This document shows positions 3,030 through 8,113 of a DNA stretch of 64,000 nt, piece after piece. The DNA lies in the NCBI RefSeq assembly GCF_003122365.1, contig NZ_CP029254.1, positions 2,614,501 through 2,678,500 of the forward strand, given 5' to 3'. Position 1 is the stretch's first letter, and each line of letters starts with the position of its first letter. This DNA comes from Streptomyces spongiicola. GTDB taxonomy: Bacteria > Actinomycetota > Actinomycetes > Streptomycetales > Streptomycetaceae. Position numbers and translations under genes: made by a program. The notes under the pieces were generated by a model. It was not told where the DNA came from, made no database searches, and worked only from the letters and a program-made list of their open reading frames with translations.

Positions 3030-4724
3030 TCAGTCCTCGGGAAGCTCCACCGGGGCGATCTCCTCGAAGACGTCGCCCGGTCCCGGGTTGGTGGCGTCGG
3101 TGGCGCCGCCGAGGTGGTGCATCACGCCCCACACGGCGTTGAGCGCCGTCTGCACCGCGCCCTCGGCCCAGCCGGCCGTCCACGAGATGTCGTCGCCGGC
3201 GAGGAAGATGCCGCGCTTGTCGTCGGGCAGCCGGTCCTGCACGAAGTGGGTGAACAACCGCCGCTGGTAGCGGTAGTGGCCCGGCAGGTTGGCCTTGAAC
3301 GCGCCCATGAAGTAGGGCTCGTCCTCCCAGGACACGGTCACCGGGTTGCCGATGATGTGCTTGCGGATGTCGACCTTCGGATAGATCTCGCCGAGCGACT
3401 TCAGCATGACCTCCATGCGCTCGCTCGCCGACAGCGGGAGCCACTTCAGGCTGTCGTCGCACCAGGTGTAGGAGAGGCAGATGACGGCGGGCCTGTCCGG
3501 GCCGTCGTCCAGCAGGTAGGTGCCGCGCGTCATCCGGTCGGTGAGCGTCATCGACATGACGTCGCGGCCGGTCTGCTCGTCCTTGTCCAGCCAGAACGGC
3601 CGGTCCACCGGCACGAACAGCTTGGACGACTCCATGTAGTGGGTCCGCTCCATCGCCGTCCAGTGGTCGATGGGGAACAGCGAGTCGTCGCAGGCGATCT
3701 TGGAGAGCAGCATCCAGGACTGTGCGGTGAAGATCGCCGCCTGGTAGGTGCGGATGTCGCCGGAGGAGTCCGTGACGGTGATGCGGTTGCCCGCGGTGCG
3801 GTGCAGCCGGGTCACGGCGGGCCGGGGCTCCCCGCCCGCGTGCAGCGTGGCGAGCGAGGTGCCGTACGTCCAGTGCGTGATCTTCTCCGGCGTGCGCTCC
3901 CAGAGGCGCAGCGGCAGCTGCTGGGAGCCGCCGACGATGCCGCGGTGGTGGTCGTCGGCCTCGGTGTAGACGACGCGGAGGATCTCCAGGATGGAGTTGG
4001 GGAAGTCGGTGTCCCAGCCGCCGGTACCGAAGCCGACCTGGCCGAAGATCTCGCGGTGCCGGAAGGACCTGAAGGCCTCGGACTCGCAGAGGAAGCCGTA
4101 GAAGGTCTGGTTGTCGAGCTTCTCGACGAGCTTCGCCCAGATCTCGCGGATCCGCGGCACGTCGCGCTCGCGCATGGCGCGGTTCATGTCGGAGAAGTCC
4201 GCGCCCTCCTCCAGGCAGTCGTTCCAGGCCTTCGCGACGTCGCGGTACACCTGCGGGAGGTCGTCGATGGTCTGCGCGTAGTGCGACTCGCCCTTGAGGT
4301 CGACGACGGTCGAGGGGGTGGCCTCGGCCAGCGGGTTGGGGAAGGGCCGCGTCTCCAGCCCCACCAGGTCGATGTAGTGCGCCAGCGCCGTCGAGGAGGG
4401 CGGGAAGCGCATGGCGCCCATCTCCGCGGTGAGCGAAGGGTCGCAGCCCTCGAAGCCCACCGTGCGCAGCCGGCCGCCGATCCGGTCCGCCTCGTAGACG
4501 ACCGGCTTGAGCCCCATCTTCATCAGCTCGTAGGCGGCGACGATGCCGGAGAGGCCGCCGCCGATGACCGCGACCTCGGTGCCGTGCTCGGTCGCGGGTA
4601 TCTGGCCCAGGCCCGCCGGGTGTGCGAGGAAGTCGTCGTAGGCGTAGGGGAAGTCAGGCCCGAACATGGTGATGGGCGGCTGCGCGCCGGTGTGCGGGAC
4701 GGAGGTGGGCACCGTGGACGTCAT
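3030..4724 (-). CDS. davB: Flavin-dependent amino-acid 2-monooxygenase, DavB (lysine 2-monooxygenase)-like
   Basis: A 564-residue FAD enzyme of the flavin amine oxidase superfamily. The dinucleotide-binding motif VAVIGGGLSG is at about residues 51-60, and the C-terminal FAD-contact segment GIFLAGDDISWTAGW is near 505-520. Stretches such as FGPDFPYAYDDFLAHPAGLG and FGQVGFGTGGWDTDFPNS match the DavB lysine 2-monooxygenase family as I know it (Pseudomonas DavB is about 560 residues). That enzyme turns L-lysine, O2 into 5-aminovaleramide and CO2. No signal peptide is seen, so it should be cytoplasmic. AGGAG sits 8 bases before the ATG. The amidase gene ends 39 bases upstream, giving a two-gene unit that mirrors davAB. 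Tryptophan or another amino acid as substrate remains possible. Confidence 0.8.
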   Translation of the reverse strand: MTSTVPTSVPHTGAQPPITMFGPDFPYAYDDFLAHPAGLGQIPATEHGTEVAVIGGGLSGIVAAYELMKMGLKPVVYEADRIGGRLRTVGFEGCDPSLTAEMGAMRFPPSSTALAHYIDLVGLETRPFPNPLAEATPSTVVDLKGESHYAQTIDDLPQVYRDVAKAWNDCLEEGADFSDMNRAMRERDVPRIREIWAKLVEKLDNQTFYGFLCESEAFRSFRHREIFGQVGFGTGGWDTDFPNSILEILRVVYTEADDHHRGIVGGSQQLPLRLWERTPEKITHWTYGTSLATLHAGGEPRPAVTRLHRTAGNRITVTDSSGDIRTYQAAIFTAQSWMLLSKIACDDSLFPIDHWTAMERTHYMESSKLFVPVDRPFWLDKDEQTGRDVMSMTLTDRMTRGTYLLDDGPDRPAVICLSYTWCDDSLKWLPLSASERMEVMLKSLGEIYPKVDIRKHIIGNPVTVSWEDEPYFMGAFKANLPGHYRYQRRLFTHFVQDRLPDDKRGIFLAGDDISWTAGWAEGAVQTALNAVWGVMHHLGGATDATNPGPGDVFEEIAPVELPED

Positions 4725-4763: not shown

Positions 4764-5576
4764 TCAGCGGGCGAGCGGCCCGTACAGGCCGGGGCGGCGG
4801 TCGCGCAGATAGGGGTTGCCGGCGCGGGAGGCCGCCAGCAGATCCGGGTCGGCGTCGCCGGCCACCAGGTCCTCTCCCAGGCCGGCGCGGGCCCGGACGA
4901 TGCCGTCGGGGCCGGCGAGGCAGCTCAGCCCGGCGAAGTCGAACTCCCCCTCGGGGCCGGTGCGGTTGGCGTACGCCACGTACATCTGGCTCTCGAAGGC
5001 GCGCACCGGGAGGAGCTTCTCGGCGACGAACCGGAACGGGTTCATCAGCGCGGTCGGCACCACCAGCAGGTCCGTGCCCGCCAGGGCGTGGGCGCGCACG
5101 TTCTCCGGGAACTCCACGTCGTAGCAGATCAGCAGCCCGACCCGGAGGCCGCCGAGCTCGGCCTGGACGACCGGCTCGTCGCCGGGGGTGAACCACTCCT
5201 GCTCGAAGCGGCCGAAGAGGTGGGTCTTGCGGTAGTTCGCGAGGCGCTCGCCCCCGGGACCGACCAGCTGCGCCGCGTTGTACACGGCTCCCGGGTCGCC
5301 GCCGGCGCCGCGCTCCGGGTAGCCGTAGACGACGGCGATCCCGTGGCGGGCGGCGATCGCGGCGACGGCCCGGGCAGCGGCGCCGTCGGCGGTCTCGGCG
5401 AGGCGGTGCACGTCGGCGCCGATGGCGTACCCGGTGAGGAACATCTCCGGCGCGACGAGGAGGCCGGCTCCCCCGGCGGCGGCCCGGGACGCGTGGGCGT
5501 CGAGGATCTCGAGGTTCTTCGCGATGTCGCCGGGGGTCCCGGAGCTCTGGAGCAGGGCTGTGCGCAGCGGAGGCAT
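4764..5576 (-). CDS. davA: Carbon-nitrogen hydrolase, DavA (5-aminovaleramidase)-like
   Basis: A 270-residue nitrilase-superfamily amidase with a complete Glu-Lys-Cys triad: Glu44 in APEMFLTGY, Lys117 in NYRKTHLFG and Cys151 in LLICYDVEFPEN. These stretches closely resemble Pseudomonas DavA, which hydrolyses 5-aminovaleramide to 5-aminovalerate and ammonia. The gene lies just upstream of the DavB-like oxidase, so together they would convert an amino acid to its shortened amide and then acid. The ATG at 5576 is chosen because homology begins at MPPLRTALLQ; the frame runs on upstream through repeats that are not coding-like. Other amidase substrates are possible, but the pairing favours the DavA role. 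Confidence 0.8.
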   Translation of the reverse strand: MPPLRTALLQSSGTPGDIAKNLEILDAHASRAAAGGAGLLVAPEMFLTGYAIGADVHRLAETADGAAARAVAAIAARHGIAVVYGYPERGAGGDPGAVYNAAQLVGPGGERLANYRKTHLFGRFEQEWFTPGDEPVVQAELGGLRVGLLICYDVEFPENVRAHALAGTDLLVVPTALMNPFRFVAEKLLPVRAFESQMYVAYANRTGPEGEFDFAGLSCLAGPDGIVRARAGLGEDLVAGDADPDLLAASRAGNPYLRDRRPGLYGPLAR

Positions 5577-5661
5577 GGGCCTACCTCGGAAGGAGTGGGT
5601 GAGGTGTCGGGGAGACGTCAGAAACCGTACGTTCCGGCCAACCGCAGGGACAAGGCGGGAC

Positions 5662-5722
5662 CGTTGCGTTCGGAGACTCGATCCGTTGCGTGAATCCGGG
5701 GTGCACCGGTGATTCGTTGCAC
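5662..5722. promoter_or_regulatory. Triple TTGC motif upstream of davAB-like genes (candidate Lrp operator)
   Basis: Three CGTTGC elements (TTGCG at 5664, TTGCG at 5686, TTGCA at 5717; spacings 22 and 31) lie 88-145 bases upstream of the amidase start. The same order (TTGCG, TTGCG, TTGCA), with spacings 21 and 30, occurs upstream of the amino acid permease at 8041-8096. The third element is also part of a GTGCA...TGCAC palindrome (5701-5722). The neighbouring Lrp/AsnC gene is the obvious candidate binder; this is inference. Confidence 0.5.
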
Positions 5723-5756
5723 GGGGCGCCCGGCAACCCCTGCGCGTCCCGGCGGC

Positions 5757-5846
5757 GTCCGGCACCGGCGGGGCGTCCGGCACCCGGCGCCAGTCCGGCA
5801 CCGGCGGGGCGTCCGGCACCCGGGGCGGGTCCGGCACCGGCGGGGC
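5757..5846. repeat. Five 18-bp tandem repeats
   Basis: Units begin at 5757, 5775, 5793, 5811 and 5829, each starting GTCCGGCACC and alternating between two endings (CGGCGGGGC and CGGCGCCA or CGGGGCGG types). They fill most of the gap between the Lrp gene's 3' end and the davAB-like promoter region and do not look like part of a gene. Confidence 0.9.
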
Positions 5847-5902
5847 GTACCTCCCGGCGGGCCGGGACGGTCCCCGCCGGGCCGGGGCGACCCCGGCGGG
5901 GA

Positions 5903-6358
5903 TCAGGCGGGTGCCCCCGAGGAGAACCGCCTGAGCAGGGGCGACAGCACCAGCACCGACTTGGTCCGCTCCACGAAGGGCTCGCCGGCGATCCGCTCCA
6001 GGACACGCTCGAAGTGGCGCATGTCCGAGGCGAAGACCTGGACGATCGCGTCCGCCTCACCGGTGACGGTGGAGGCGGACGCGACTTCCGGGTACCGCGC
6101 GAGGCCGCGCTTGATCGTCTCGGGTGAGGTGTTGCTGCGTGCGTGGATCTCGATGAAGCCCTCGGTCTCCCAACCCATCGCGCCCGGGTCGACGCGGACC
6201 GTGAAGCCGGTGATGACCCCCTCCGCCCGGAGCCTGTCCACACGCCGTTTGACGGCGGGCGCGGACAGGCCGACGAGCGAACCGATGTCGGCGTAGGAAC
6301 GGCGGGCGTCCTCGGCGAGGGCGTGGACGATGCGTTCGTCGAGATCGTTCAGTCGCAC
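5903..6358 (-). CDS. Lrp/AsnC family transcriptional regulator
   Basis: A 151-residue regulator with an N-terminal winged helix-turn-helix (LNDLDERIVHALAEDARRS to about residue 60) and a C-terminal RAM/AsnC ligand domain (about 68-140). Lrp proteins are octameric or dimeric DNA binders that sense amino acids. The GTG at 6358 is chosen because the family begins at LNDLDERIV; a longer frame upstream reads into the permease 3' end. The gene starts 10 bases after the permease stop, so both are likely cotranscribed. It sits between the permease and the DavAB-like enzymes, making it the probable regulator of both. Confidence 0.9.
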   Translation of the reverse strand: MRLNDLDERIVHALAEDARRSYADIGSLVGLSAPAVKRRVDRLRAEGVITGFTVRVDPGAMGWETEGFIEIHARSNTSPETIKRGLARYPEVASASTVTGEADAIVQVFASDMRHFERVLERIAGEPFVERTKSVLVLSPLLRRFSSGAPA

Positions 6359-6368
6359 GGGCGGTGGA

Positions 6369-7841
6369 TCACTTCTCTGCTGTTGCCATCCGGGAGCGGC
6401 GAATGCCGTAGAGGAAGTAGAACACGAGCCCGGCCGCCATCCAGCCGGCGAACCACACCCAGGTGACACCGGGGAGGCTGAGCATCATGTAGGCGCAGAA
6501 GAGGAAGCCCAGGATCGGGGTGACCGGGAAGAGCATCACCTTGAAGGTGCGGTCCATGTCCGGGCGCTTCCAGCGCAGGATGACCACGGCGACGTTGACC
6601 AGGGCGAAGGCGAAGAGGGTGCCGATACTCGTGGCGTTCGCCAGTTCGCCGAGCGGGATGAAGGCCGCCAGGACACCGCAGAACAGCGAGACGATCACGG
6701 TGTTGGCCCGCGGGGCGCCGGTCTTCTCGTTGACCCTGGCGAAGACCTTGGGGACCAGGCCGTCGCGGGACATCGCGAACAGGATGCGGGTCTGCCCGTA
6801 CAGCACGGCGAAGACGACGCTGGCGATCGCGACGACGGCGCCGGCGGCCAGCACCACGCCCCAGAAGCTCTGGCCCGTGACGTCCTTCATGATCTGGGCG
6901 AGCGCCGCCTCGGTGCCCTCGAAGTCCTGCCACGGCATGGCGCCGACGGCGACCAGGGCGACGAGGCAGTAGAGCACCGTGACGATCAGCAGCGACAGCA
7001 TGATCGCCCGCGGGAGGTCCCTCTTCGGGTTCTTCGCCTCCTCGCCGGCGGTGGAGGCGGCGTCGAAGCCGATGTACGAGAAGAAGAGCGTGGCCGCGGC
7101 GGCGCTGATGCCGGTGACGCCGAGCGGGGCGAGCGGGGCGTAGTTGCCGGCCCTGATGCCCATGAAGCCGATGCCGATGAACAGCAGCAGCGTCACGATC
7201 TTGACGGCGACCATGACCGTGTTGACCCGTGCGCTCTCCTTGGCGCCTCCCATCAGGAAGACCATGGCGAGCAGCACGACGACGAGCGCGGGAAGGTTGA
7301 TCAACCCGCCCTCGCCGACCGGAGCGGAGACGGCGTCCGGGATCGTCACTCCGATCGTGCCGTCGAGCAGTTCGTTGAGGTACTCGCCCCAGCCGACGGC
7401 GACGGCCGCGACGGAGACGCCGTACTCCAGCACCAGGCACCAGCCGCAGACCCAGGCGACCAGTTCGCCCATCGTGGCGTACGAGTAGGAGTACGACGAG
7501 CCGGACACCGGTACGGAGCCGGCGAGTTCGGCGTACGACAGGGCCGAGAACAGGGCGGTCAGCCCGGCGATGACGAAGGAGATCGCGACGGCCGGGCCGG
7601 CCAGCGGGGTGGCCTCCCCGAGCACGACGAAGATGCCGGTACCGAGGGTGGCACCGATGCTGATCATGGTCAGCTGCCACATGGTGAGCGAGCGGCGGAG
7701 CGTGCCGCCCTCGCCCCGGCCCCCCTCGGCGACGAGCTGCTCGACGGGCTTGCGCCGCATCAGACGGCTACCGAGGCCCTGGGCGGGCCCCCCGGGGTCC
7801 CTCTGGGGAGTGACGGGGGGCGCTGCGCCGTGATCCAACAC
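6369..7841 (-). CDS. APC superfamily amino acid permease (cationic amino acid transporter-like)
   Basis: A 490-residue membrane transporter of the amino acid-polyamine-organocation superfamily. After a soluble N-terminus the first membrane segment carries the family signature MISIGATLGTGIFVVLG (about residues 59-75); about 12 membrane spans follow. The long N-terminal tail and sequence style match the YfnA/CAT subfamily, which often moves basic amino acids. That would fit lysine uptake for the DavBA-like enzymes (inference). It is cotranscribed with the Lrp gene 10 bases downstream. An upstream gap of 272 bases carries the triple TTGC motif. Confidence 0.88.
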   Translation of the reverse strand: MLDHGAAPPVTPQRDPGGPAQGLGSRLMRRKPVEQLVAEGGRGEGGTLRRSLTMWQLTMISIGATLGTGIFVVLGEATPLAGPAVAISFVIAGLTALFSALSYAELAGSVPVSGSSYSYSYATMGELVAWVCGWCLVLEYGVSVAAVAVGWGEYLNELLDGTIGVTIPDAVSAPVGEGGLINLPALVVVLLAMVFLMGGAKESARVNTVMVAVKIVTLLLFIGIGFMGIRAGNYAPLAPLGVTGISAAAATLFFSYIGFDAASTAGEEAKNPKRDLPRAIMLSLLIVTVLYCLVALVAVGAMPWQDFEGTEAALAQIMKDVTGQSFWGVVLAAGAVVAIASVVFAVLYGQTRILFAMSRDGLVPKVFARVNEKTGAPRANTVIVSLFCGVLAAFIPLGELANATSIGTLFAFALVNVAVVILRWKRPDMDRTFKVMLFPVTPILGFLFCAYMMLSLPGVTWVWFAGWMAAGLVFYFLYGIRRSRMATAEK

Positions 7842-8038
7842 TGGGGAGGCTCCTTATCGCTGCCTGTCGCTGCAATCGCTGCAATCGCTGCTGGCGGTGA
7901 GGCGGCGACCACGGCGGCCCGGCGCGGGCGCGGCTGAGGGCAGCCCGGAGCGCGGGGAATCGCCGAGCAGACGATCCCCGCCACTCCACGTACAGGCAGG
8001 ACCCTACGAGGTCGACGTTCCCGACCGTAATGCATGAG

Positions 8039-8097
8039 CTTTGCGCACCCGCGGGTGATCGTTGCGCGCTGGGGGCGACCGCGGAGGAACGTTGCAC
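8039..8097. promoter_or_regulatory. Triple TTGC motif upstream of the amino acid permease (second candidate Lrp site)
   Basis: TTGCG at 8041, TTGCG at 8062 and TTGCA at 8092 repeat the pattern and nearly the spacing (21 and 30 versus 22 and 31) seen upstream of the amidase gene. A fourth element, GCGCAAA (TTTGCGC on the other strand), follows at 8102. The rest of the 272-base gap (7842-8113) holds a short TCGCTGCAA tandem repeat near 7867-7891 and no gene. Confidence 0.5.
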
Positions 8098-8113
8098 CGG
8101 CGCGCAAAGGCGT

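Follow-up and report, generated by a model that had tools for sequence, protein, structure and literature searches.

The gene for an Lrp/AsnC-type regulator in the window (the whole 64-kb stretch of Streptomyces DNA analysed here) is flanked by two promoter gaps which, in all likelihood, carry copies of one three-site operator for the regulator encoded between them. Judged from the sequences compared, this Lrp is predicted to bind as an oligomer and to activate transcription with the aid of a ligand, its regulon consisting of the two promoters. The element has a fixed geometry, is conserved and is associated with this particular Lrp subfamily.

Genes, operators and promoters of the locus

The enzyme operon on the minus strand begins with a carbon-nitrogen hydrolase gene (DavA-like amidase, 4764..5576; PF00795, E 1.5e-51), whose product stays below every NCBIfam equivalog cut-off, and also contains a flavin L-amino-acid oxidase/2-monooxygenase (DavB-like, 3030..4724; PF01593) with 3we0 as its best PDB match (E 1.4e-237). 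The regulator, the predicted binder of both operators, is encoded on the same strand (5903..6358) and carries the recognition helix LSAPAVKRRVDRLR. Its AsnC-type HTH (PF13404, 57.1 bits) and RAM ligand domain (PF01037, 55.0 bits) both score above cut-off, and it falls short of the LysM equivalog cut-off (NF040947, 70.8 bits against 180). The recognition helix is conserved in orthologues and outgroups while much of the remaining protein diverges. Separated from the regulator gene by a gap of 10 bp is an APC-family amino-acid permease gene (6369..7841, minus strand; TIGR00909, 557.8 bits against a cut-off of 556.8), and the two are probably co-transcribed. With amidase, oxidase and permease as neighbours, the window Lrp has neither a dimethylargininase (ddaH) nor an ornithine aminotransferase (rocD) gene beside it; the dimethylargininase of the same genome, at 955424, has no Lrp or rocD match nearby. 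No guanidinobutyrase gene is linked to the locus, the single arginase-family gene of the genome lying about 950 kb from the window. Just past a plus-strand ORF (1164-2648), a stretch of about 55-60 bp occurs in two tandem copies (2640-2760).

The earlier note had pointed to TTGC words at 5664, 5686 and 5717 (spacings 22 and 31) and at 8041, 8062 and 8092 (spacings 21 and 30). These are indeed the sole TTGC words of the gaps 5577-5902 and 7842-8113, respectively. As the target genes are both on the minus strand, the motif in gene orientation is GCAA and, correcting that note, the distal sites are those at 5717 and 8092 and the proximal ones those at 5664 and 8041. Operator A, upstream of the amidase, is predicted from sequence pattern and alignment to comprise 15-bp sites at 5654..5668 (proximal, CGCAACGGTCCCGCC), 5676..5690 (middle) and 5707..5721 (distal, genus consensus CGCAACGAATCGCCG), all on the minus strand. 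The corresponding minus-strand sites of operator B, upstream of the permease, are predicted at 8031..8045 (proximal), 8052..8066 (middle, genus consensus CGCAATGATCnTnCG, a near-palindrome) and 8082..8096 (distal). Downstream of lrp and ahead of operator A lie GC-rich tandem-like repeats of the GTCCGGCACCGGCGGGGC type (5760-5860), and the permease leader has four copies of GCAGCGA, as read on the gene strand, immediately upstream of the ribosome-binding site (7855-7892).

The view that such a pair of triples is unlikely to arise by chance is borne out within the window, where no further triple is found on either strand and where a Markov null (300 first-order sequences of 64 kb each, searched with the triple spacings) yields 0.003 per 64 kb on average and never two. 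Across the 7.18-Mb genome a loose spacing pattern gives three matches, namely the two window operators and one unrelated, as compared to seven for the reversed control pattern; the strict pattern finds the two window operators only, with no reversed-control match.

Both operators adjoin predicted promoters. At the amidase the proximal site abuts a -35 box TTGTCC (5648..5653, minus strand), with the -10 box TACGGT (5624..5629, minus strand) 18 bp away; TTGT is present in 64 of 64 aligned elements, the -10 box is conserved as TACCGT or TACCTT, and the spacer to the TAC-like box measures 18 bp in 62 and 17 bp in two of the 64. At the permease the proximal site likewise abuts the -35 box TTACGG (8025..8030, minus strand; TTAC in 55/60, TTTC in 5/60), followed after 18 bp by TAGGGT (8001..8006, minus strand). 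The latter is conserved as TAGGCT or TAGGGT, with an 18-bp spacer in 53/60 elements and a 17-bp spacer in four, while the box is not recognised in three. That the proximal site directly adjoins a promoter whose -35 and -10 boxes are 18 bp apart suggests activation. The opposite mode of action, in which the same regulator on the same operator would repress until its ligand releases it, is unlikely: an oligomer bound next to the -35 box could block the polymerase, and Lrp proteins act both ways in the account of PMC2995911, but all three sites of each operator lie upstream of the -35 box and none overlaps the -10 box, and the roc cluster of M. tuberculosis is described as rising with arginine (PMC4569260).

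A single site spans about 15 bp and resembles CGCAA-N5-TTGCG, often with just the CGCAA arm well kept. The two sets of spacings (31/22 and 30/21 bp) agree with the Lrp-type clustering of imperfect inverted repeats of 13-17 bp in helical phase. When the five outer base pairs are scored, the middle site of the paralogue operator described below forms a 15-bp inverted repeat, with 4.67 of 5 pairs matched as against 1.71 after arm permutation, the permease sites reach 3.28 (middle) and 3.10 (proximal), and the amidase sites remain at 1.2-2.0, near the controls. The inverted repeat is thus clear at the middle and proximal permease sites and at the distal and middle paralogue sites, and weak at the amidase sites. 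A perfect 15-bp palindrome at every site was rejected, as the amidase sites score near controls; from these scores it follows that Lrp-like 15-bp sites are clear at some positions and one-armed at others.

In the mechanism we propose, the Lrp dimers of one oligomer would bind the three sites and wrap the DNA; the sites occupy the same helix face at intervals of about three and two turns, and the proximal site directly adjoins the -35 box. Once the oligomer has bound a basic amino acid (arginine, a compound related to it, or lysine), its proximal dimer would aid RNA polymerase, and the amidase-oxidase operon, the permease and lrp itself would be switched on; in this genome the amidase-oxidase and permease-lrp promoters would make up the regulon. 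Comparable arrangements are known from archaea. Three dimers of Ss-LrpB from Sulfolobus interact at this protein's own promoter and wrap about 100 bp of DNA, and as at the window operators its sites lie on one helix face, two or three turns apart; it differs in being archaeal, in binding DNA without an amino-acid effect, and in its targets and promoter type. BarR of Acidianus and Sulfolobus is described as having three 15-bp semipalindromic sites per region, with DNA around an octamer, and as targeting the gene of an amino-acid enzyme (PMC10201364), but has an AT-rich site centre, beta-alanine as ligand and a divergent promoter.

Footprint across Streptomyces

An Lrp match at E<=1e-35 is present in 147 of 150 Streptomyces genomes, and 100 Lrp neighbourhoods were taken for the footprint, which had been proposed as a check of the motif and bears it out. 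Three of the 147 have a match at the 53-54% paralogue level only, judged by identity for G120 and G121 and by E-value for G028. Of the 100 neighbourhoods, 74 contain the oxidase, 72 the amidase and 66 the permease; DUF742 turns up in just two, which places the upstream conservon outside the module. Exact GCAA triples precede 67 of the 72 amidases and all 60 permease starts that could be used; none of the 100 loci has one upstream of the start of lrp itself. The five amidase regions missed by the exact pattern, read by eye, keep the element with one GCAA substituted in each. With scoring neutral towards A or G at the fifth base and a threshold of 13 of 15, the triple is found in 71/72 amidase and 60/60 permease regions; 69 of those 71 amidase regions have a spacing of 31/22 bp and every one of the 60 permease regions has 30/21 bp, so that each promoter keeps its own, slightly different spacing genus-wide. 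Under the same scoring the fifth bases read AAA in 71/71 amidase regions at or above threshold and in 60/60 permease regions.

The strict pattern occurs in 134 of the 150 genomes, with at most three and mostly one or two matches each, against two reversed-control matches in total. Closeness of strict matches to lrp was read among the matches listed, where G127:C37 is a clear stray. Some of the 16 genomes without the strict pattern are near misses (L300 of G005, for example, carries a triple), and in G091 and G133 no element is found in the 16-kb stretches examined. An accident of chance or base composition, conceivable in that a single motif has only four bases, deserves practically no credence: the spacing is fixed in 131 of 132 regions, the Markov and reversed controls lie as low as given above, and the footprint rules it out.

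The oxidase is present in 144/150 genomes. Five genomes (G037, G050, G079, G120, G121) lack both the oxidase and the Lrp orthologue, and among these only G120 has the element, at its ddaH-linked paralogue; in the discordant genomes G028 and G073 the sequence runs out at a contig edge. In 34/100 loci no permease was found next to lrp; such genomes mostly have one element, and the permease arm is therefore regarded as optional. A 10-base row (L274, G028:C1:1-10) was dropped, as were the second copies of L287 and L263. In G021 (L275:1034-2967) the operator stands immediately upstream of the oxidase, with no amidase found in the stretch examined, and L302 and L303 are similar oxidase-only loci. 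An aldehyde-dehydrogenase-like gene precedes lrp in at least one genome that lacks the adjacent permease (L301:2961-5038).

Other actinobacterial families and the ddaH-linked paralogue

In a class-wide survey of 246 genomes, 80 have an Lrp match at E<=1e-40 and 49 the strict pattern, 19 of the latter being Streptomyces. The element lies within 0.6 kb of an Lrp homologue in 24 of the 30 non-Streptomyces genomes with a strict match, and none of the remaining six (G180, G256, G288, G327, G351, G359) is among the genomes with an Lrp match. In 24 of the 34 outgroup Lrp loci, a position weight matrix (PWM) built exclusively on Streptomyces scores higher than each of the 306 null maxima. Downstream of the outgroup element there is mostly ddaH, then usually rocD; all three dimethylargininases tested score above the NF045659 cut-off. 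Among the 31 outgroup ddaH loci 23 score at least 13, a count that includes L291, whose GGG triple (spacing 29/20) is spurious and whose element the PWM places elsewhere. No full triple was scored in the other eight: L266, L268, L286 and L289 have the middle and proximal sites only, and L272, L281, L282 and L283 likewise lack a full triple. Exceptions at the fifth base among the outgroup loci scoring at least 13 are G at the distal site of L269 and at the proximal site of L287. In two loci of family f17 permease, amidase and oxidase lie beside this Lrp, with a significant PWM element upstream of the amidase in L267 and none in L285. The outgroup loci L270 and L271 have a layout like the M. tuberculosis roc cluster, with the operator present.

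A second Lrp is found in 72/150 Streptomyces genomes, beside ddaH in the loci counted. Its operator scores at least 13 of 15 in 51 of 53 distinct loci and is nearly always of the CGCAG type with 31/21 bp spacing. The fifth base of its middle site is G (44 cases) or C (2) where the recognition helix has Thr, G (3) with Ser and A (2) with Pro. Window-type orthologues have Pro in 100/100 and elements reading A; the outgroup elements, chosen by the PWM, have A alongside Pro in 18 cases and Ser in four, with one Lrp unread. The A-only fifth base of the aligned Streptomyces set is partly selected by the GCAA pattern, and the A/G-neutral rescoring repeated it. On the tree a single branch sets off each Streptomyces Lrp group from the rest (SH-aLRT 97% and 99%), and the window type is nearest to ddaH-linked Lrps of families f19 and f15 (92%). 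For the origin of the oxidase-linked Lrp this tree shows two changes, and a single clade is not rejected (p-AU 0.32). The covariation of operator and helix comprises few evolutionary events, with a small number of independent switches.

The joint change from CGCAA to CGCAG in the operator and from Pro to Thr in the helix ties the operator to this Lrp subfamily. Together with the element beside Lrp homologues in other families and its matched absence, it lends support to the assignment of this Lrp as regulator of the two promoters, predicted earlier from the sequence. A different, unlinked transcription factor binding the triple, with Lrp a mere neighbour, is very improbable; in 26/100 loci the oxidase was not found in the lrp neighbourhood examined, but the element accompanies lrp across families though the target genes change, and it covaries with the recognition helix. 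A plausible if tentative proposal is that an ancient regulon contains a natural switch of specificity: a single position of the recognition helix (x in LSA-x-AVKRRVDRLR, occupied by Pro, Ser or Thr) would determine which base comes fifth in CGCA-A/G and so insulate two paralogous Streptomyces circuits of the same operator geometry, one serving ddaH-rocD and the other an oxidase-amidase-permease pathway to which it was recruited.

Substrate, ligand and significance

The enzyme pair probably degrades a basic amino acid. Flavin 2-monooxygenase and amidase are paired, as in the window, in both the DavBA lysine pathway and the arginine monooxygenase-guanidinobutyramide hydrolase pathway; no control of either by this Lrp was found in the open-licence literature searched. 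The labels "DavBA-like" and "lysine" of the earlier note are provisional, since the same operator stands in front of arginine genes in outgroups, and arginine is at least as likely as lysine to be substrate or effector.

A true DavBA pair with lysine as substrate and signal is possible, if somewhat doubtful. The window oxidase aligns to 3we0, the L-lysine oxidase/monooxygenase of Pseudomonas AIU 813 and closest solved enzyme, with 793 bits over 548 residues. The latter is reported to prefer L-Lys, with relative oxidase activities of 31% for Orn and 6% for Arg (PMC5832979), and its Asp238 is kept in the window oxidase; the surrounding GGWDTD occurs in 77/77 oxidases with the motif read, out of 86 entries, some of them partial. 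Furthermore, S. lividans is reportedly without arginine monooxygenase, azalomycin having needed fed 4-guanidinobutyramide (PMC5082578), and the window-type oxidase is near-universal in the genus, as counted above. Against lysine stand the dimethylargininase-ornithine aminotransferase operons served by the same Lrp subfamily and operator in outgroups, as well as two replacements relative to 3we0: Cys254, involved in the oxidase/monooxygenase balance, is Ala at the aligned position, and Ala515 is Gly, a change described also for related enzymes with wider pockets (PMC5832979). The reported doubling of S. coelicolor gabT on arginine (PMC3293853) is compatible with an arginine-to-GABA route, without being proof. 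Some Streptomyces have a second oxidase, 62-64% identical (L308-L313), near large regulator-like and CoA-ligase-like ORFs, which may be a dedicated arginine monooxygenase of polyketide clusters. It was dropped as an arbiter of the substrate; since a first-look ORF reading puts these genes in apparent secondary-metabolite clusters, they just hint at a separate arginine monooxygenase.

A close parallel is the M. tuberculosis roc cluster, in which the AsnC-type Rv2324 is described as adjoining a dimethylargininase-like gene, rocD and rocE; arginine induces the cluster more than 20-fold and Rv2324 6-fold (PMC4569260). By this published description, in which no operator was found, ddaH-rocD take the place of the amidase-oxidase pair at the Streptomyces Lrp. 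Because arginine induces this cluster of the outgroup type, ligand-dependent activation is the favoured, analogy-based reading for the window regulator.

No description of the operator, the Streptomyces regulon or the Pro/Thr covariation was found in the open-licence PMC literature by titles and abstract openings, subscription papers lying outside this search. The regulator-operator pair is a new one of a kind already known, in which Lrp sites of 15 bp are clustered in phase. A regulator, an operator of fixed architecture and a two-promoter regulon are hereby assigned to a catabolic pathway of nearly all Streptomyces, and the same regulator-operator pair serves different enzymes in different actinobacterial families. 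The correspondence of Pro or Thr with CGCAA or CGCAG offers a concrete and cheap handle on DNA recognition by Lrp proteins, and the operator hints at what an arginine regulator of the M. tuberculosis type may bind.
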